Shown: positions 21,938 to 59,770 of the stretch, in pieces | How the letters are laid out: every line of letters starts with the position of its first letter | How positions within the stretch are numbered: the first letter of the stretch is position 1 | Assembly: GCF_030316825.1 (NCBI RefSeq) | Contig: NZ_JASZYU010000001.1 | Coordinates: 1,488,001-1,552,000 of the forward strand | Direction: 5' to 3' | Source: Variovorax fucosicus | GTDB lineage: Bacteria; Pseudomonadota; Gammaproteobacteria; Burkholderiales; Burkholderiaceae_C | Length of the DNA: 64,000 bases | Translations under genes and position numbers: made by a program | Notes under the pieces: model-generated | Database searches by the model: none | Told to the model about the DNA's origin: nothing | Seen by the model: the letters and a program-made list of their open reading frames with translations, nothing else

Positions 21938-22981
21938 GTGGACATTACCCAATTGCTGGCGTTCAGCGTCAAGAACAAGGCGTCGGACTTGCACCTTTCT
22001 TCCGGTCTGCCGCCGATGATCCGGGTGCACGGCGACGTGCGGCGCATCAACGTCGACGCGCTGGACCACAAGCAGGTGCATGCCATGGTGTACGACATCA
22101 TGAGCGACACGCACCGCAAGCACTACGAAGAGTTCCTCGAAGTCGACTTTTCCTTCGAAATCGAAGGCCTGGCGCGCTTTCGCGTGAATGCCTTCAACCA
22201 GTCGCGCGGCGCGGCAGCGGTGTTCCGGACGATTCCCTCGAAGATCCTTTCGCTCGAACAGCTCAACGCACCCAAGATCTTCGGCGATCTGGCGCTCAAG
22301 CCGCGTGGCCTGGTGCTGGTCACCGGCCCCACGGGCTCGGGCAAGTCGACCACGCTGGCGGCGATGGTCAATTACCTCAACGAAACCGAGTACGGCCACA
22401 TCCTGACGGTGGAAGACCCGATCGAGTTCGTGCACGAGTCCAAGAAGTGCCTGATCAACCAGCGCGAAGTCGGGCCGATGACGCTCTCGTTCGCGGCCGC
22501 GCTGCGCTCCGCCCTGCGCGAAGACCCGGATGCGATCCTGGTCGGCGAAATGCGCGACCTGGAAACCATCCGCCTCGCCATGACCGCGGCCGAAACGGGC
22601 CACCTGGTGTTCGGCACGCTGCACACCTCGTCGGCCGCCAAGACCATCGACCGGATCATCGACGTGTTCCCCGGCGAAGAAAAGGACATGATCCGGGCGA
22701 TGCTTTCGGAGTCGCTTCAGGCCGTGATTTCGCAGACCCTGTGCAAGACCAAGGACGGCCAGGGCCGCGTGGCGGCGCACGAGATCATGCTGGGCACCCC
22801 CGCCATCCGCAACCTGATCCGCGAAGGCAAGGTGGCGCAGATGTATTCGTCGATCCAGACCGGCCAGGGCCAGGGCATGCAGACGCTCGACCAAAACCTG
22901 ACCGACCTGGTGCGCCGGAGTGTCATTTCGGCTGCCGAAGCACGCGGCAAGGCCAAGATCCCCGAGAATTTCCCAGGATGA
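21938..22981 (+). CDS. pilT: Type IV pilus twitching motility ATPase
   Basis: Hexameric retraction ATPase that depolymerises type IV pili at the inner membrane. The 347-residue product carries Walker A GPTGSGKSTTLAAM, the Asp box ILTVEDPIEF, Walker B ILVGEMRD and the His box TGHLVFGTLHTSSA, plus the C-terminal AIRNLIREGK motif diagnostic of PilT. The start is GTG at 21938, with AGGAG four bases upstream; an in-frame TTG at 21926 would contain the Shine-Dalgarno itself and is rejected. pilU follows after a 171-bp gap filled largely by a dispersed repeat. Confidence 0.96.
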   Translation: MDITQLLAFSVKNKASDLHLSSGLPPMIRVHGDVRRINVDALDHKQVHAMVYDIMSDTHRKHYEEFLEVDFSFEIEGLARFRVNAFNQSRGAAAVFRTIPSKILSLEQLNAPKIFGDLALKPRGLVLVTGPTGSGKSTTLAAMVNYLNETEYGHILTVEDPIEFVHESKKCLINQREVGPMTLSFAAALRSALREDPDAILVGEMRDLETIRLAMTAAETGHLVFGTLHTSSAAKTIDRIIDVFPGEEKDMIRAMLSESLQAVISQTLCKTKDGQGRVAAHEIMLGTPAIRNLIREGKVAQMYSSIQTGQGQGMQTLDQNLTDLVRRSVISAAEARGKAKIPENFPG

Positions 22982-22986
22982 CTTCG

Positions 22987-23086
22987 GCTCGCCCCCAGTC
23001 TGCGCGCACTGCGTGTCGCTTCGCCAACCCCCTGCCGGGGGCAACACCGGCGGCCCGGCAGAGCCGGTTCCGCGGTATTTCGCGAA
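22987..23086 (+). repeat. Dispersed intergenic repeat, copy 1 (pilT-pilU gap)
   Basis: About 100 bp closely matching segments at 24289-24390 and 58721-58822. Core order: a GCCCCCAG box, CGCGCACT/CGTGTCGCTTCGCC, a CCCCC-N4-GGGGG hairpin followed by CAACACC, then a CGGC-AGA-GCCG hairpin and GGTTCCGCGGT. Two hairpins in one unit resemble REP-type elements. All copies read in the same direction as the gene they follow. Confidence 0.85.
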
Positions 23087-23152
23087 TGGGAATAACCTCT
23101 TACGGCCGCGCTCGTCCATCGACGACGGCACACTGAATCAGGAGTCGCAATC

Positions 23153-24289
23153 ATGGAACGCGATCAAGCCAGCCAGTTCATCAACGACCTGCTCAAGCTC
23201 ATGGTGAGCCGCAACGGCAGCGACCTGTTCATCACGGCCGACTTTCCGCCGGCGATCAAGGTCGATGGCAAGGTCATCAAGGTGTCGGGCCAGGCGCTCG
23301 GCGCGCAGCACACGCTGGCCCTTACCCGCTCGATCATGAACGACCGGCAGACGGCGGAGTTCGAGCGCACCAAGGAGTGCAATTTCGCGATCTCGCCGAC
23401 CGAGATCGGCCGCTTCCGGGTGAACGCGTTCGTGCAGCAGGGCAAGATCGGCATGGTGCTGCGCACCATCCCGCAAAAGCTGCCGACCATCGACGGGCTC
23501 GGCATGCCGCAGATTCTGAAAGACGTGGCGATGACCAAGCGCGGGCTGACCATCCTGGTCGGCGCCACCGGCTCGGGCAAATCGACCACGCTGGCCGCGA
23601 TGGTCGACTGGCGCAACGAAAACTCGCAAGGCCACATCGTCACGGTGGAAGACCCGATCGAATTCGTGCACCCGCACAAGAACTGCGTGGTGACGCAGCG
23701 CGAAGTGGGCATCGACACCGACACCTGGGAGGCCGCGCTCAAGAACACGCTGCGCCAGGCGCCAGACGTGATCCTGATGGGCGAAATCCGCGACCGCGAA
23801 ACGATGGACCATGCCATCGCCTTCGCCGAAACGGGCCACCTCTGCATGGCCACGCTGCACGCCAACAGCGCCAACCAGGCGCTCGACCGGATCATCAACT
23901 TCTTCCCGGAAGAGCGCCGCATGCAGCTGCTGATGGACTTGTCGCTGAACCTGCGGTCGCTGGTGTCGCAGCGCCTGGTGCCCACCGAAGACGGGCGCGG
24001 CCGCGTGGCGGCGGTCGAGATCCTGCTGAACACGCCGCTGATCTCCGACATGATCCTGAAGGGCGAGGTCGGCGAGATCAAGGAAATCATGCGCAAGAGC
24101 CGCAACCTCGGCATGCAGACCTTCGACCAGGCGCTGTACGACCTGTTCGAATACAACGCGATCTCGCTCGAGGACGCACTGCGCAACGCCGATTCGCAGA
24201 ACGACCTGCGGCTGCAGATCAAGCTCAACAGCCAGCGCGCCCGCACGACCGACCTCTCGGCCGGCACCGAGCACTTCGCGATCGTTTAG
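23153..24289 (+). CDS. pilU: PilT/PilU family type IV pilus ATPase
   Basis: Accessory retraction ATPase paralogous to PilT, 378 residues. Motifs: Walker A GATGSGKSTTLAAMVDWRN, Asp box VTVEDPIEFVHPHKN, Walker B ILMGEIRDRETM and His box TGHLCMATLHANSANQ; the ANSANQALDRI form and the longer C-terminal tail ending TEHFAIV are typical of PilU rather than PilT. AGGAG lies 9 bases before the ATG. It forms the usual pilT-pilU pair and probably works as a PilT-dependent helper. A second repeat copy begins at its stop codon. Confidence 0.95.
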   Translation: MERDQASQFINDLLKLMVSRNGSDLFITADFPPAIKVDGKVIKVSGQALGAQHTLALTRSIMNDRQTAEFERTKECNFAISPTEIGRFRVNAFVQQGKIGMVLRTIPQKLPTIDGLGMPQILKDVAMTKRGLTILVGATGSGKSTTLAAMVDWRNENSQGHIVTVEDPIEFVHPHKNCVVTQREVGIDTDTWEAALKNTLRQAPDVILMGEIRDRETMDHAIAFAETGHLCMATLHANSANQALDRIINFFPEERRMQLLMDLSLNLRSLVSQRLVPTEDGRGRVAAVEILLNTPLISDMILKGEVGEIKEIMRKSRNLGMQTFDQALYDLFEYNAISLEDALRNADSQNDLRLQIKLNSQRARTTDLSAGTEHFAIV

Positions 24290-24390
24290 CTCGCCCCCAG
24301 GCTGCGCGGCACTTCGTGTCCGCTACGCCAACCCCCTACCGGGGGCAACACCTGCGGCCCGGCGGAGCCGGTTCCGCGGTGTTCACCGCT
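24289..24390 (+). repeat. Dispersed intergenic repeat, copy 2 (after pilU)
   Basis: Second full copy of the repeat seen at 22987-23086, starting in the last base of the pilU stop codon. It shows the same GCCCCCAG start, CCCCC-N4-GGGGG hairpin, CAACACC and CGGC-N3-GCCG hairpin, and ends 12 bp before the next start codon. Several substitutions lie outside the hairpin stems. Confidence 0.85.
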
Positions 24391-53024: not shown

Positions 53025-54545
53025 ATGGCGACCGCACTTCAACTGACGGGCATCGGCAAGTCCTTCGACGGCTTCAAGGCGCTGATCGATGCGGACTTCA
53101 GCGTGCGCCGGGGCGAGGTGCATGCGCTGCTCGGCGAGAACGGCGCGGGCAAGTCGTCGCTGATGAACATCGCGGCCGGGCTCTACGCGCCCGAGGCCGG
53201 CCAGATCCTGGTCGACGACAACCCGGTGCAGTTCAGCGGCCCGCGTGACGCGGCGCGCCACCACATCGGCATGGTGCACCAGCACTTCAAGCTGGTGAAG
53301 CCGTTTACCGTGGCCGAGAACATCATGCTGGGCCATCCGCTCGCCACTGGCGAGGGCAGCCACCGCAAGCGGCTTGCCACGCTCGAGGCCGAGATCCGCG
53401 CCAAGGCCGCGGCGCTGGGCTTCGACATCGATCCGCGCCAGCGCACCGAGCGCCTGTCGATCGCCGAGCAGCAGCGCGTCGAGATCCTGAAGGTGCTGCT
53501 GGCCGGCGCGCGCATCCTGATCCTCGACGAACCCACCGCCGTGCTGACCGACCAGGAGGCCGAGCGCCTGCTGTCTACCGTGCATGCGCTCTCGCGCAAC
53601 GGCGCCGCGGTGGTGCTGGTCACGCACAAGATGGCCGACGTCAAGACCTGGGCCGACCGCGTGACCGTGATGCGCGGCGGCCGCACGATCCGGACGGTCG
53701 ATCCCCGGACCGTGGCGATCGCGGAGCTGGTGCAGCTCACGGTCGGCGAATCGATCGCGCTGCCCGGCGCCGGGCAGCGCACGCGCACGCCGGCCGGCGA
53801 GGCGCGGCTCACGGTTCGCGGACTGCGCTCGGCCCCGGCCGCCGGCCGCCCTGCGCTCGACGGCGTCGACCTCACGCTGCACGCCGGCGAGATCTACGGC
53901 CTGGCGGGTGTCGGTGGCAACGGGCAGAGCGAGCTGTCCGCGGCGCTGATGGGGCTCGACCCCGCGATCGAAGGCAGCATCACGCTGCAGGATTTCGGCG
54001 ACCTGCGGGCCGCCACCACTTCCGGTCGCCGTGCGCTGCAGTTCGCGGCCATCCCGGCGGATCGCTACGGCATTGCACTGGCGGGCGCCTTGTCGGTGGC
54101 CGAGAACTTCGGCATCGGCCAGGTGCATGACGGGCGCTACGGTTCGCCCTGGCGGCTCGACACGAAGCAGATGGAAGCCGACGCGAAGACGGCCGTTGCG
54201 GCGTTCGACGTGCAGGGCGTGCGCCAGCTCGACCAGAAGGCCGCGCTGCTGTCCGGCGGCAATGCACAGAAGCTGGTGCTTGCGCGCGAGTTCGGCCGCG
54301 CGCCGCGCATCGTGCTGGCACACAGCCCGAGCCGCGGCCTCGACGTGCGCGCCAGCGCCGAGGTGCATGCGCGGCTGCTGGCTGCGCGCGATGCGGGCGC
54401 CGCGGTGCTGCTGATCAGCGAAGACCTCGACGAGGTGCTGGCCCTATCGGATCGCGTGGGCGTGATGACGCGCGGGCGCATCGTGGCCGAATTCGAACAG
54501 CCGGCCGATCGACAGGCGATCGGGCAGGCGATGGTGAGCAGATGA
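53025..54545 (+). CDS. ABC transporter ATP-binding protein (double-domain, BMP/sugar type)
   Basis: Fused tandem ATPase of 506 residues. First half: Walker A LLGENGAGKSSLMNI, Q-loop in GMVHQHFKL, signature LSIAEQQRVEILK and Walker B ILILDEPTAVLT. Second half: GVGGNGQSELSAALMG in the Walker A place (no Lys, as usual in this family), signature LLSGGNAQKLVLARE and RIVLAHSPSRGLDV with the Walker B Glu replaced, so the second site is probably non-hydrolytic. Overlaps the first permease gene by ATGA. Confidence 0.94.
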   Translation: MATALQLTGIGKSFDGFKALIDADFSVRRGEVHALLGENGAGKSSLMNIAAGLYAPEAGQILVDDNPVQFSGPRDAARHHIGMVHQHFKLVKPFTVAENIMLGHPLATGEGSHRKRLATLEAEIRAKAAALGFDIDPRQRTERLSIAEQQRVEILKVLLAGARILILDEPTAVLTDQEAERLLSTVHALSRNGAAVVLVTHKMADVKTWADRVTVMRGGRTIRTVDPRTVAIAELVQLTVGESIALPGAGQRTRTPAGEARLTVRGLRSAPAAGRPALDGVDLTLHAGEIYGLAGVGGNGQSELSAALMGLDPAIEGSITLQDFGDLRAATTSGRRALQFAAIPADRYGIALAGALSVAENFGIGQVHDGRYGSPWRLDTKQMEADAKTAVAAFDVQGVRQLDQKAALLSGGNAQKLVLAREFGRAPRIVLAHSPSRGLDVRASAEVHARLLAARDAGAAVLLISEDLDEVLALSDRVGVMTRGRIVAEFEQPADRQAIGQAMVSR

Positions 54546-55696
54546 ACTCCACCCCCTTGCAGGCGGCAGCGCCAGCGGCCGGGCAAAGCCAGCTCCGTGG
54601 TGTTCCCGGCAAAGAGCCCACCGCGCAGGCCCGGCCGCTGGCCAGCCGCCGTTTCGCGCTGGAAATCCGCCAGCAGATGGCCTGGCCGCGGCAGGCGCTG
54701 ATCCTGGCCGTGTCGCTCGCGATCGGCATGGGCATCTCGGCCGCGATCCTGGTGGCGGCCGGCGTGCCCGCCAACGAACTGCTCAACGAATTCGTGCTGC
54801 AGACGCTGTTCGACAAGCAGAGCCTGCAGGCCGTGCTGTTTCAGGCCGCACCGATGATCCTGGTCGGCATCGCGGCGTCGCTGGCGTTCCGCGCACGCTT
54901 CTGGAACCTGGGGCTCGAAGGCCAGATGATCTGGGGCGCGATCGGCGCGACGGCGATCTCCTTCTTCGACCTCGGCCCGCCCGCGCTGCGCCTGCCGTTG
55001 ATGCTGGCCATGGCGATCGCGTTCGGCCTGCTCTGGGCGCTGGCGCCGGCGCTGCTCAAGCTCAGGCTGGGCGTGAACGAGATCATCTCGTCGCTGATGC
55101 TCAACTACATTGCGGGCAACTTCCTGCTGCACCTGGTGTACGGGGCCTGGAAAGACCCGAAGGATTCGTTTCCGTACTCGCCGCAGTTCCGCGCCTTCGA
55201 GCGCCTGCCGGAATGGTTCGGCAATGTCAGCACAGCCGCCATCGGGCTGGCGCTGTGCGTGGCACTTCTTGCCTGGTGGTTCGTCGGCGTCAGCCGCGCC
55301 GGGCTGTACCTGCGCTTCGTCGATGCCAATCCGCGCATGGCCGATGCGGTGGGCGTGCCGGTGCGGCGCATGATCCTGTCGGCGGTGCTGCTGTCGGGCG
55401 CGCTCTCGGGCATTGCGGGCTTCGTCGTCGTGGCGGGCCAGGAAGGCCGGCTGACGCAGGCCTTCCATTCGGGCTACGGCTTCTCCGGCATCCTGATCGC
55501 CTTCCTCGCGCGCAACAACCCGCTGGCGGCAACCGTGGTCGCGGTGCTGGTGGCGGCCTTGTTCGTGGCCGGACGGAACCTGCAGGTTTTCTATCAGATC
55601 CCGTTCTCGATGGTGCAGCTGATCCAGGCGATCGTGGTGATCTGCGTGGCATCGTCGGACTTCTTCATCCGCCACCGCATCCGCAACGTCCGATGA
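54542..55696 (+). CDS. ABC transporter permease 1 (BMP system)
   Basis: Membrane-spanning subunit of the importer, 384 residues. After about 35 hydrophilic residues come eight to ten hydrophobic helices, with the family segments FRARFWNLGLEGQMIWGAIGA, LRLGVNEIISSLMLNYIAG and GYGFSGILIAFLARNNPLAA. The first 22 residues (STPLQAAAPAAGQSQLRG) are encoded by a degenerate copy of the genome's dispersed repeat, so this N-terminal tail seems to be a late addition. ATGA overlaps at both ends couple it with the ATPase and with permease 2. Confidence 0.94.
   Translation: MNSTPLQAAAPAAGQSQLRGVPGKEPTAQARPLASRRFALEIRQQMAWPRQALILAVSLAIGMGISAAILVAAGVPANELLNEFVLQTLFDKQSLQAVLFQAAPMILVGIAASLAFRARFWNLGLEGQMIWGAIGATAISFFDLGPPALRLPLMLAMAIAFGLLWALAPALLKLRLGVNEIISSLMLNYIAGNFLLHLVYGAWKDPKDSFPYSPQFRAFERLPEWFGNVSTAAIGLALCVALLAWWFVGVSRAGLYLRFVDANPRMADAVGVPVRRMILSAVLLSGALSGIAGFVVVAGQEGRLTQAFHSGYGFSGILIAFLARNNPLAATVVAVLVAALFVAGRNLQVFYQIPFSMVQLIQAIVVICVASSDFFIRHRIRNVR
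54548..54608 (+). repeat. Degenerate partial repeat copy 4, inside the permease coding sequence
   Basis: 61 bp that align without gaps to the second half of the copy at 58721-58822 (from the CCCCC hairpin through CAACACCAGCGGC and CGGCAAAGCC to GGTGTTCCC), with about 12 mismatches by hand count. It starts 3 codons after the permease ATG and is read in frame. Confidence 0.65.
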
Positions 55697-58130: not shown

Positions 58131-58721
58131 ATGTTGAAACGCTGGCTTGGAATGATGGTGCTGGCCCTGTCGCTGACGGGCTGCGGATACAACGACTTTC
58201 AGAAGCTCGACGAGGCGAGCAAGTCTGCCTGGAGCGAGGTGCTGAACCAGTACCAGCGCCGTGCCGACCTGGTGCCGAACATCGTCGCCAGCGTGAAGGG
58301 CGAGGCCAATTTCGAGCAGGAGACGCTCACCAAGGTGATCGAGGCGCGCGCCAAGGCCACGTCGATCCAGGTCACGCCCGAGACGCTGAACAACCCCGAG
58401 GCGTTCAACAAGTTCCAGCAGGCACAGGGTGAGCTGTCAGGCGCGTTGTCGCGGCTCATGGTGGTGGCCGAGCGCTATCCGACGCTGCAGGCCAACCAGG
58501 CGTTTCGCGACCTGCGCGTGACGCTCGAAGGCACCGAGAACCGCATCACCGTGGCGCGCAACAACTACATCAAGACGGTGCAGGAGTACAACGTGCTCTC
58601 GCGCAGCTTTCCGACCAACGTGACGGCCAAGATCTTCGGCTACCCGCCGAAACAGACCTTCAGCGTGCAGAACGAGGCCGAGATCTCCAAGCCACCCACG
58701 GTCGACTTCAACAAGAAGTAG
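58131..58721 (+). CDS. lemA: LemA family lipoprotein
   Basis: Membrane-attached helical protein, 196 residues. Lipobox LSLTGCGYNDFQ (Cys18), then NQYQRRADLVPNIVASVKGEANFEQETL and TVQEYNVLSRSFPTNVTAKIFGYPPKQTF, which are LemA marks. AGGAGG lies eight bases before the ATG. It is paired with two TPM-domain genes, the usual lemA-ygcG set. Role unknown; these sets are linked with envelope stress in some bacteria. Confidence 0.93.
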   Translation: MLKRWLGMMVLALSLTGCGYNDFQKLDEASKSAWSEVLNQYQRRADLVPNIVASVKGEANFEQETLTKVIEARAKATSIQVTPETLNNPEAFNKFQQAQGELSGALSRLMVVAERYPTLQANQAFRDLRVTLEGTENRITVARNNYIKTVQEYNVLSRSFPTNVTAKIFGYPPKQTFSVQNEAEISKPPTVDFNKK

Positions 58722-58822: not shown

Positions 58823-59770
58823 ATGGCCGCGCCTTCGGCGGCGGCCTTCTTGCGATGGGTGCTGGCCGCCTGCTTCTTTTTTGTGCTGGCGCCGGCAGGG
58901 GCATTCGCGCAGGGGGTGCTGCCGGTGCCGGCGCTCACGGCCCGGGTGATCGACCAGACCGGCACGCTCGATGCCACGCAGTTGCAGGTGCTCGAGGCCA
59001 AGCTGGCCGGGTTCGAGCAGAAGAAGGGGTCGCAGATCGTGGTGCTGATGGTGCCGACCACGGCGCCGGAAGACATCGCGAGCTATGCCCACCGCGTTGC
59101 CGCCACCTGGAAGATCGGCCGCAAGGAGGTGGGCGATGGCGTGCTGGTGATCGTGGCGAAGGACGACCGCAAGATGCGCATCGAGGTCGCCAAGGCCCTT
59201 GAAGGCGCGGTGCCCGATCTGGCGGCGGCGCGCATCATCGACAACGAGATGAAGCCGCGCTTTCGCAACAACGATTTTGCGGGCGGGCTCAGCGCGGCGA
59301 CCGACCAGCTCATCGCGCGCATCAACGGCGAGGCACTGCCCGAGGTCAGCGGTGAAGCCGGCGGCAAGGGCGCCGGCGGCCTGCTCGGCAACCTCGACAT
59401 CGACTGGGCCGAGCTTGGCATCTTCCTGTTCTTCGGCGTGCTCGTGATCGGCCGCGTCGCGCGCTCGATTTTCGGCAACAAGCTGGGGCCGCTGGTCACC
59501 GGCCTTGGGGCGGGCGCGATCGCGATGGTCGTCACCGCCAGCGTGGTGCTGGCCGTGATCGCCGGTTTCGTGGCGCTGCTGTTCACGCTGTTCTCGGGCG
59601 CCATCTCCCTGCCCTCGCTCGGTGGCGGGCGCGGTGGCGGCGGTTTTGGCGGTGGCGGTGGTGGGTTTGGCGGCGGCTTCGGCGGCGGCTCGTCGGGTGG
59701 CGGGGGCGGTGGCTTCAGCTCCGGCGGTGGTGGCGATTTCGGGGGCGGTGGCGCCTCGGGGGACTGGTAG
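58823..59770 (+). CDS. TPM-domain (YgcG) membrane protein with Gly-rich tail
   Basis: A 315-residue protein: signal peptide (about 12-33, FLRWVLAACFFFVLAPAGAFAQ), TPM domain (about 40-180, with DQTGTLDATQLQVLEAKLAGFEQ and VIVAKDDRKMRIEVAKALEG), two hydrophobic helices, then a Gly/Ser tail of about 60 residues ending in a DW. Typical YgcG architecture. The ATG at 58823 touches the repeat and has no clear ribosome binding site; a start at TTG or GTG near 58850 is an alternative. Operon with lemA and the next TPM gene. Confidence 0.88.
   Translation: MAAPSAAAFLRWVLAACFFFVLAPAGAFAQGVLPVPALTARVIDQTGTLDATQLQVLEAKLAGFEQKKGSQIVVLMVPTTAPEDIASYAHRVAATWKIGRKEVGDGVLVIVAKDDRKMRIEVAKALEGAVPDLAAARIIDNEMKPRFRNNDFAGGLSAATDQLIARINGEALPEVSGEAGGKGAGGLLGNLDIDWAELGIFLFFGVLVIGRVARSIFGNKLGPLVTGLGAGAIAMVVTASVVLAVIAGFVALLFTLFSGAISLPSLGGGRGGGGFGGGGGGFGGGFGGGSSGGGGGGFSSGGGGDFGGGGASGDW

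Follow-up and report, generated by a model that had tools for sequence, protein, structure and literature searches.

A three-hairpin repeat directly behind stop codons in Variovorax, probably a high-copy branch of the Beta-proteobacterial repeat element

The described system closest to the repeat reported here is the Beta-proteobacterial repeat element (BRE), an element of about 90 bp from Bordetella and Comamonadaceae that was named in 2011 (PMC3110155). In the parts of that description compared here, BRE units are 75-91 bp long with a GC content of about 69% (63.7-78.9), stand in tandem with no or few nucleotides between them, are mostly intergenic and at times overlap the ends of ORFs by a few bases; their copy number varies at a locus, there are at most 29 per genome, no Variovorax is listed, and those parts give neither an anchoring to stop codons nor hairpins and propose no function (PMC3110155). 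The same parts name ERIC, NEMIS/Correia, RUP and BOX as small mobile repeats (PMC3110155), and in the rows consulted of a survey of stem-loop families the betaproteobacteria are Bordetella and Neisseria (PMC2267715). According to the portion of PMC2817692 that was used, REP-associated tyrosine transposases (RAYTs) are defined by the REPs that flank them. In E. coli, as given in the sections compared of PMC12306157, REPs down-regulate translation only if they are less than 16 nt from the stop codon, for which an earlier study is cited, and 446 of 4,072 predicted REPs lie 15 nt or less from a stop, the earlier study as cited there giving 260 of 496. Beyond BRE, a search of open-licence PMC text and of titles and the beginnings of abstracts returned no published description of the repeat.

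The repeat was encountered in the window, that is, the whole stretch of 64,000 nucleotides of Variovorax fucosicus DNA that was analysed. A sequence-only reading of this DNA had claimed that two copies bracket pilU and that a third is about 34 kb away, and the family covariance model finds the repeat at all three sites (Table 1). The genes 5' of copies 1 and 2 are two PilT/PilU-family ATPase genes, and the MamQ match of the gene 5' of copy 3 is below the cut-off. That the repeat can reach the very edge of a stop codon is borne out by copy 2, and the match of copy 3 ends 5 nt 5' of an in-frame ATG at 58823. The repeat is about 95 bp long and consists, from 5' to 3', of a leader and the hairpins H1, H2 and H3, all behind the stop codon. 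The leader, from 0 to about 12 nt past the stop, is C-rich and ends in NCCCCC. H1 has a variable stem with the usual cap CAC-nnn-GTG-T and is followed by a short linker and then by H2, which is CCCCC-loop-GGGGG, and H3 consists of a 6-bp outer stem, then GCGG/CCGC, then CCGGC/GCCGG. Two hairpins had been described, a C5/G5 hairpin and then a CCGGC/GCCGG hairpin, and both are present in that order, but the count was wrong, as a third hairpin, GCG-CAC-loop-GTG-T-CGC, lies upstream of them; likewise, the last hairpin is present but is longer than had been claimed, with AACACC...GGTGTT outside GCGG/CCGC and CCGGC/GCCGG. A conserved H3 block pattern matches all three window copies and an H2 block pattern with a fixed loop length matches copy 3 only, each with 0.00 matches in 100 dinucleotide-preserving shuffles. 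An extension of H1 by a GGC/GCC stem, which appeared in one centroid structure, was discarded, as position 13 had changes that its partner did not share. Among the Rfam 15 covariance models there was no family match to the repeat and the window gave one tRNA only; between 22950 and 24450 there were just four sub-threshold matches with E values of 3.5-9.7. The weak match in the window is either a decayed copy or chance. The gene under it resembles ABC transporter permeases, and it may be a decayed copy that has turned coding.

Table 1. Copies of the repeat in the window, their hairpins and one weak match
Feature	Start	End	Strand	Evidence and remarks
Copy 1	22987	23081	+	111.5 bits (family covariance model); starts 5 nt past the pilT stop TGA 22979-22981
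Copy 1, H1	23004	23019	+	sequence; H1 covariation
Copy 1, H2 (CCCCC/GGGGG)	23028	23041	+	sequence; pair counts
Copy 1, H3	23043	23079	+	covariation; its outer stem, AACACC/GGTATT, has one C.A mismatch
Copy 2	24289	24385	+	109.2 bits; shares the G of the pilU stop TAG (24287-24289)
Copy 2, H1	24306	24323	+	GCGG/CCGC, 1 bp more than H1 of copies 1 and 3
Copy 2, H2	24332	24345	+	sequence
Copy 2, H3	24347	24383	+	sequence, folding, family model
Copy 3	58722	58817	+	109.2 bits; adjoins TAG 58719-58721, the stop of a gene with a weak MamQ match
Copy 3, H1	58739	58754	+	sequence, family model
Copy 3, H2	58763	58777	+	sequence, family model
Copy 3, H3	58779	58815	+	sequence, folding, family model
Weak H3-like match	54512	54606	+	36.9 bits (family model), 32.6 bits in a further scan; spans the start of ORF 54542-55696

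The evidence for this structure is covariation and not folding energy. The folding-energy z values of the three window copies are unremarkable (0.64, -1.37 and -2.05), folding energy being uninformative because the composition is GC-rich throughout. In a 32-row alignment 97.7% of the cells pair and two-sided changes are seen at six pairs, every one of them in H3; of five measures of pairing, four are higher than in any of 500 shuffles and the fifth, further pair types, was reached by 20 of the 500. Covariation is silent on H2 because H2 varies too little and is without two-sided change. The outer pairs of H1 fail in 6 and 8 of the 32 rows of the MAFFT alignment owing to asymmetric gap placement by MAFFT, and when H1 is aligned on its cap there are 3.42 contiguous pairs past the cap compared to 1.78 in shuffled sequences (maximum 2.02), as counted in the 259 copies, out of 322, whose cap could be recognised. 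These 322 are what was kept of 385 H3 elements after those with fewer than five outer pairs had been excluded from the H1-cap, run-length and other-species counts. The 385 places with an H3 core in the sequences retrieved display 32 distinct outer stems that are fully paired over six positions, G.T being counted as a pair, and these include AACACC/GGTGTT, GCAGTC/GACTGC, GCACCC/GGGTGC and AGCAGC/GCTGCT. Outside the genus but within the family, 37 copies were examined, and 204 of their 222 outer H3 positions pair, where shuffling gave a mean of 148 and a maximum of 164, and in the remaining three groups outer H3 pairing was also higher than in each of 200 shuffles. For the distant set RNAalifold, with no structure supplied, arrives at these three hairpins as well.

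When the genome of 5.81 Mb in 16 contigs was searched with the covariance model R1, built from 32 aligned copies, the repeat was found at 123 places at E ≤0.01, a count from which decayed copies may have escaped because only 150 of 10,332 first-look candidates were scored. Of these matches 66 are on the + strand and 57 on the - strand, and 111 score above 60 bits. The sequence-only reading had proposed such a count and had named about three copies with no orientation bias as the outcome that would speak against it; the genome holds far more than that, with a strong bias of orientation. A second model, R2, has 16 rows, 15 of them from other genera or families and 12 of them copies of family f4, and it finds 114 places in this genome, all among the 123 of R1 and none outside them. 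Among the nine places without an R2 match four apparently have a 3' hairpin of another kind, one is the weak match in the window and four are weak. By this f4-rich model the Variovorax copies and the short f4 copies are linked as one family. R1 matches were present in 18 of 18 further Variovorax genomes and in none of 12 genomes of other families. In wider searches, where 28 candidates per genome were scored at the family level and 10 at the order level with stricter filters so that the counts are lower bounds, the repeat was present in at least 93 of 150 sampled genomes of its family, this genome and another Variovorax included, and, at much lower sensitivity, in at least 13 of 399 genomes of the order, four of these 13 being outside its own family and two further families being represented. 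An exact core pattern run over named genomes matched at least 114 loci, and among the matches listed all are Variovorax except one, which is 'Burkholderiales bacterium 8X', scaffold VARIO8X. Within the genome under study the density of good copies differs between contigs, with 8 in the 978 kb of contig C8 compared to 67 in the 2.54 Mb of C1 and 25 in the 1.13 Mb of C7, and C8, with its low density, might represent a second replicon or have a different origin.

The strongest result is a positional rule, namely that the 5' end of the repeat is at a same-strand stop codon. Positions rest on gene calls from a simple codon-usage caller trained on the window, and they were counted for the 111 copies above 60 bits, leaving out the 12 R1 matches at or below 60 bits. 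Eighty copies lie between co-directional genes, 23 before a convergent gene and 6 + 2 in other arrangements. The upstream gene is on the same strand in 103 of the 111, as expected from the earlier description of a dispersed, REP-like element behind a gene in the same direction, and on the opposite strand in eight, two of which abut the called start codon of that gene. One of the 103 sits inside a called gene near its 3' end, and among the 102 that remain, 101 start between -5 and +14 nt from the upstream same-strand stop (99 at -5 to +7 nt and two at 13 and 14 nt) and the last has an overlap of 32 nt with the called gene end. The next gene, on the other hand, starts at a loose distance, from -7 to 316 nt. 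If the copies were placed uniformly in these spacers, 46.8 of them would fall within 14 nt, with a maximum of 61 in 2000 runs. In spacers of at least 60 nt, 28 of 28 copies are 14 nt or less and 26 of 28 are 7 nt or less from the stop, and of the 23 copies in convergent pairs all have the 5' end no more than 7 nt from the sense stop and none has the 3' end that near to the other stop. In copies whose leader ends in TGTT this TGTT is 1-3 nt past the stop in all eight that have a same-strand gene, so the true insertion points may lie even nearer the stop. Downstream of the copies in the 102 spacers there are 102 other sense-strand TAA, TAG or TGA triplets, 62 spacers having at least one, and since these are unused the triplet alone cannot be the target; this avoidance has a probability of about 1e-24 if all triplets were equally open, and it is compatible with selection after insertion. 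Being anchored to working stops rather than to stop triplets, the element is tied to translation. In 100 copies the median distance from the stop to the cap stem of H1 is 20 nt, and about 20 nt past a stop is close to the edge of a terminating ribosome. This tight coupling to the stop codon and the third hairpin are features that the earlier reading had missed.

Two kinds of known element would be placed in the same manner. An integron attC site is also an imperfect palindrome directly behind a stop in the sense orientation, and its position relative to the gene is the same. However, a search of 114 copies for the two halves of the attC core consensus gave GTTRRRY in one and RYYYAAC in two, there are three hairpins and not one, and this genome has no integron integrase above the family cut-off but only sub-cut-off tyrosine recombinase matches. 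With its core sites nearly absent and no integrase over the cut-off the attC site was rejected, and we give it next to no credence. A portable transcription terminator would likewise follow stops with a strong GC hairpin, as the repeat does, and the C-rich leader could load Rho. Against this, TTTT is present near the end in 4 of 111 copies and T5 in 1 of 111, 80 copies are between co-directional genes, the spacer measures a median of 36 nt when the repeat is subtracted, and some copies have a distinct T-run hairpin behind them (in the flanks of, for example, L002, L012 and L027). The role in termination that had been suggested earlier is contradicted by the missing U-tract, for which reason an intrinsic terminator was rejected as the general function, and a portable terminator seems to us quite improbable.

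The positional rule extends to other species. In Variovorax loci taken from named records or from around pilU, the C-run of the leader is at -3 to 20 nt from the stop in 112 of the 128 copies that have a same-strand upstream gene; a further 13 have an opposite-strand gene, three have no gene and 7 of 151 were unparsed. Of the 16 that do not conform, ten are 97-394 nt downstream, as would be later members of tandem arrays, two are at 21 and 37 nt and four are at -12 to -10 nt. The rule is obeyed by 19 of the 21 copies with a same-strand gene that come from other genera of the family, with three more having an opposite-strand gene and 8 of 32 being unparsed for the leader, and in one locus of a different genus, L319, the repeat is again directly behind what reads as the 3' end of pilT. 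The f4 relatives are 77-89 bp long with a GC content of 0.72-0.84 and are often in tandem, with an array spacing of 80-132 nt. As the leader parser failed on all 25 copies of f4 and f30, their position was read from the H3 core to the stop, and in 10 of 27 f4 core matches the stop is 46-52 nt before the H3 core, which is just before the leader; ten others are later array members, four are without an upstream gene call and three, the first copies of L343, L344 and L359, do not fit. There was no H3-core match in the f30 loci L355-L357 nor in L351 and L354.

The f4 and f30 relatives (L342-L361) fit most of the traits of BRE in the text compared, BRE being matched by its description and not by its letters. 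The length of f4 fits that description, whereas its GC content is higher and some of its arrays are looser, with about 40 nt between units; the Variovorax copies, at about 95 bp, are longer than the published 75-91 bp and have a spacing of 95-97 nt. The repeat is therefore probably a high-copy Variovorax branch of BRE, an identity that we infer from the description since the letters of BRE are absent from the text compared. The likeness to REPs, BIMEs and their RAYTs, as far as the portion used of PMC2817692 describes them, is that the repeat is high in copy number, palindromic, extragenic and present in arrays and that the genome has a RAYT-type gene. All 12 Variovorax genomes that were scanned gave a single match to a Y1/REP-type transposase, the one of this genome (L031, G000:C1:876199-876525) scoring 77.4 bits with NCBIfam REP_Tyr_transpos, just below the cut-off of 80. 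An ordinary REP moved by this single RAYT would explain the high copy number and the palindromes. However, RAYTs are defined by flanking REPs in the account cited above, and there is no R1 match in the 3.3 kb around the transposase of this genome, that is, no repeat within 1.5 kb on either side of it, so the nuclease link that had been proposed earlier, taken as a link to a transposase, is unsupported at this locus. Such transposases are also found in genomes of other families without a match to the repeat (G020, G023 and G025), and the repeat, at about 95 bp, with three hairpins and a fixed orientation to the upstream gene, is several times the length of a REP, which also counts against this explanation; we consider it unlikely. 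The repeat is like the stop-proximal REPs of E. coli in being a hairpin repeat just past the upstream stop, but the shares of E. coli REPs so placed are those given at the outset from the sections compared of PMC12306157, in contrast to nearly every copy with a same-strand gene here.

What makes the repeat look mobile, as had been suggested earlier, is its copy number together with filled and empty orthologous junctions and tandem arrays. Of 30 Variovorax loci, four have the repeat in the gap behind the pilT stop (L282, from the genome under study, L289, L298 and L300) and six have it in the gap behind the pilU stop (L282, L283, L285, L289, L295 and L297), with a remnant there in L301. When the flanks of copies above 60 bits were compared by blast with the 114 named loci, 34 orthologous junctions for 24 copies were usable (both flanks matching at least 150 nt, gap no more than 330 nt), and 21 were filled and 13 were without the repeat; 21 of 34 is not a rate because the named loci had been picked for holding a copy somewhere. 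Among the 13, L153 has by eye a decayed piece of leader and H1, and in L154, at the site of window copy 3, the repeat is absent and there are 10 nt between stop and start. At L090 and L134 the orthologous sites hold a different subtype. L301 and L309 look like losses, and the changes between filled and empty are not polarised. In genome G008 five tandem copies with a spacing of 96 nt are behind pilT and three more with a spacing of 95 nt are behind the gene after pilU, the internal junction being the same. Downstream of pilU in the sister genomes L283 and L285, a segment of 81 nt that lies between two inverted copies is inverted in one relative to the other, at 97.5% identity, which indicates that the repeat can mediate rearrangement. 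Among the loci compared we found no target-site duplication, transposition event or mobilising enzyme, and a target duplication is undefinable because the compared species are too distant. The repeat is thus presumably mobile and non-autonomous. ERIC, NEMIS/Correia, RUP and BOX are small, non-autonomous, structured and intergenic, as is the repeat, but they are from other hosts, the likeness is one of kind and not of compared sequence, and neither terminal inverted repeats nor a target duplication could be made out in the repeat.

Several copies depart from the usual form. A copy of 60 bp (G000:C8:924112-924171) has kept the leader and H3 and has lost H2 and part of H1, and it is still 6 nt past a stop codon. 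Chimeric copies at G000:C7:872767, C8:155325, C11:258237 and C1:502517 have the usual leader, H1 and H2 with a different 3' module that is rich in GGCCGGCCGC-TTCG-GGCGGCC, the match at C1:502517 holding just the beginning of this module, and they suggest a modular, mosaic family. In the pilT-pilU gap of L288 a more divergent structured insert, with the hairpins CCCCCC...GGGGG and GGCCGCC/GGCGGCC, is at the same stop codon and is possibly another branch of the repeat family.

Whether the hairpins are kept as RNA or as DNA bears on a further explanation, that the repeat is an RNA element of the upstream gene which the host maintains for ribosome stalling or protection from 3' decay like that by REPs in E. 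coli. A start no more than 14 nt from the stop in 101 of 102 copies is what this explanation would lead one to expect. Wobble pairs in the stems of H3, counted in 322 or 327 elements with relatedness ignored, differ between groups. In Variovorax there are 10 G.T compared to 27 A.C on the sense strand, which speaks against selection on sense RNA and for a DNA palindrome or the other strand; a sense A.C is a G.T on the other strand, and the excess in Variovorax would fit a hairpin of the bottom strand. Outside Variovorax there are 14 G.T and 2 A.C, which fits sense RNA, although ten of the 14 are in related tandem copies of f4 and may be one shared change. Pooled, the counts are 24 G.T and 29 A.C, or 29 and 26 if the selection of elements counts G.T as paired. 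There is also an alternative fold, as the C5 of the leader can pair with the G5 of H2 in place of H2 itself, and this is the minimum-energy fold in one of the three window copies. The lengths of the three runs are correlated (p 4e-4 for leader C and H2 G, 1e-5 for H2 C and H2 G and 3e-4 for leader C and H2 C, by Fisher tests on 299 copies with relatedness ignored), which is suggestive only as there are few events in related sequences, and it is a possibility that the leader and H2 C-runs, both able to pair with the same GGGGG, would form a switch. The alternative fold and the correlated run lengths would suit an RNA element as do the wobble pairs outside Variovorax, whereas the wobble pairs within Variovorax do not, and nor does the patchy presence of the repeat at a given gene within the genus, as in the pilT and pilU gaps. 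Taken together, we hold a host-maintained RNA element to be possible, but doubtful.

The explanation that we favour, and that seems on balance somewhat probable, is that of a non-autonomous, modular, palindromic repeat of the Burkholderiales, high in copy number in Variovorax, with hairpins that act at the level of DNA and with copies kept behind working stops. By this explanation the hairpins in Variovorax would be kept since spreading copies need them as folded DNA, and cells would retain mainly those copies that are behind a working stop, where they are tolerated or used. When transcribed, the hairpins would lie just past the terminating ribosome and the repeat would give the upstream gene a structured 3' untranslated region. 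Judging from REP biology, the 15-bp H3 might block 3'-to-5' exonucleases and the repeat would perhaps slow translation termination, and the upstream message would in this manner be set apart from the rest of the operon, for example that of pilT from that of pilU. By this analogy an effect on the mRNA of the upstream gene is likely, and the influence on mRNA stability that the sequence-only reading had suggested is plausible. A bolder proposal is that the functional stop itself is the address, so that copies would be placed through translation termination, for instance by copying the 3' fragment of an mRNA that was cleaved at a stalled ribosome, and not by recognition of DNA; we regard this as a long shot.

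The repeat is thus ordinary in kind but unusually disciplined, and its anatomy and its positional rule are new. Its copies stand in one orientation where translated genes end, and do so in several genera, which is far more specific than the label 'intergenic' that small bacterial repeats usually receive. There are about 100 marked stops per genome, for which the orthologues without the repeat in sister species are controls, and with this set one could ask if the repeats alter what becomes of the mRNA upstream and how a non-coding element comes to be where it is. Should the repeat and BRE prove to be linked, an element for which no function was given in 2011 gains a concrete anatomy and position. 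Finally, the stop codons before the copies are TGA in 43 cases, TAG in 35 and TAA in 24, compared to 38, 14 and 8, respectively, in the called genes of the window, so that TGA looks under-used before the copies.
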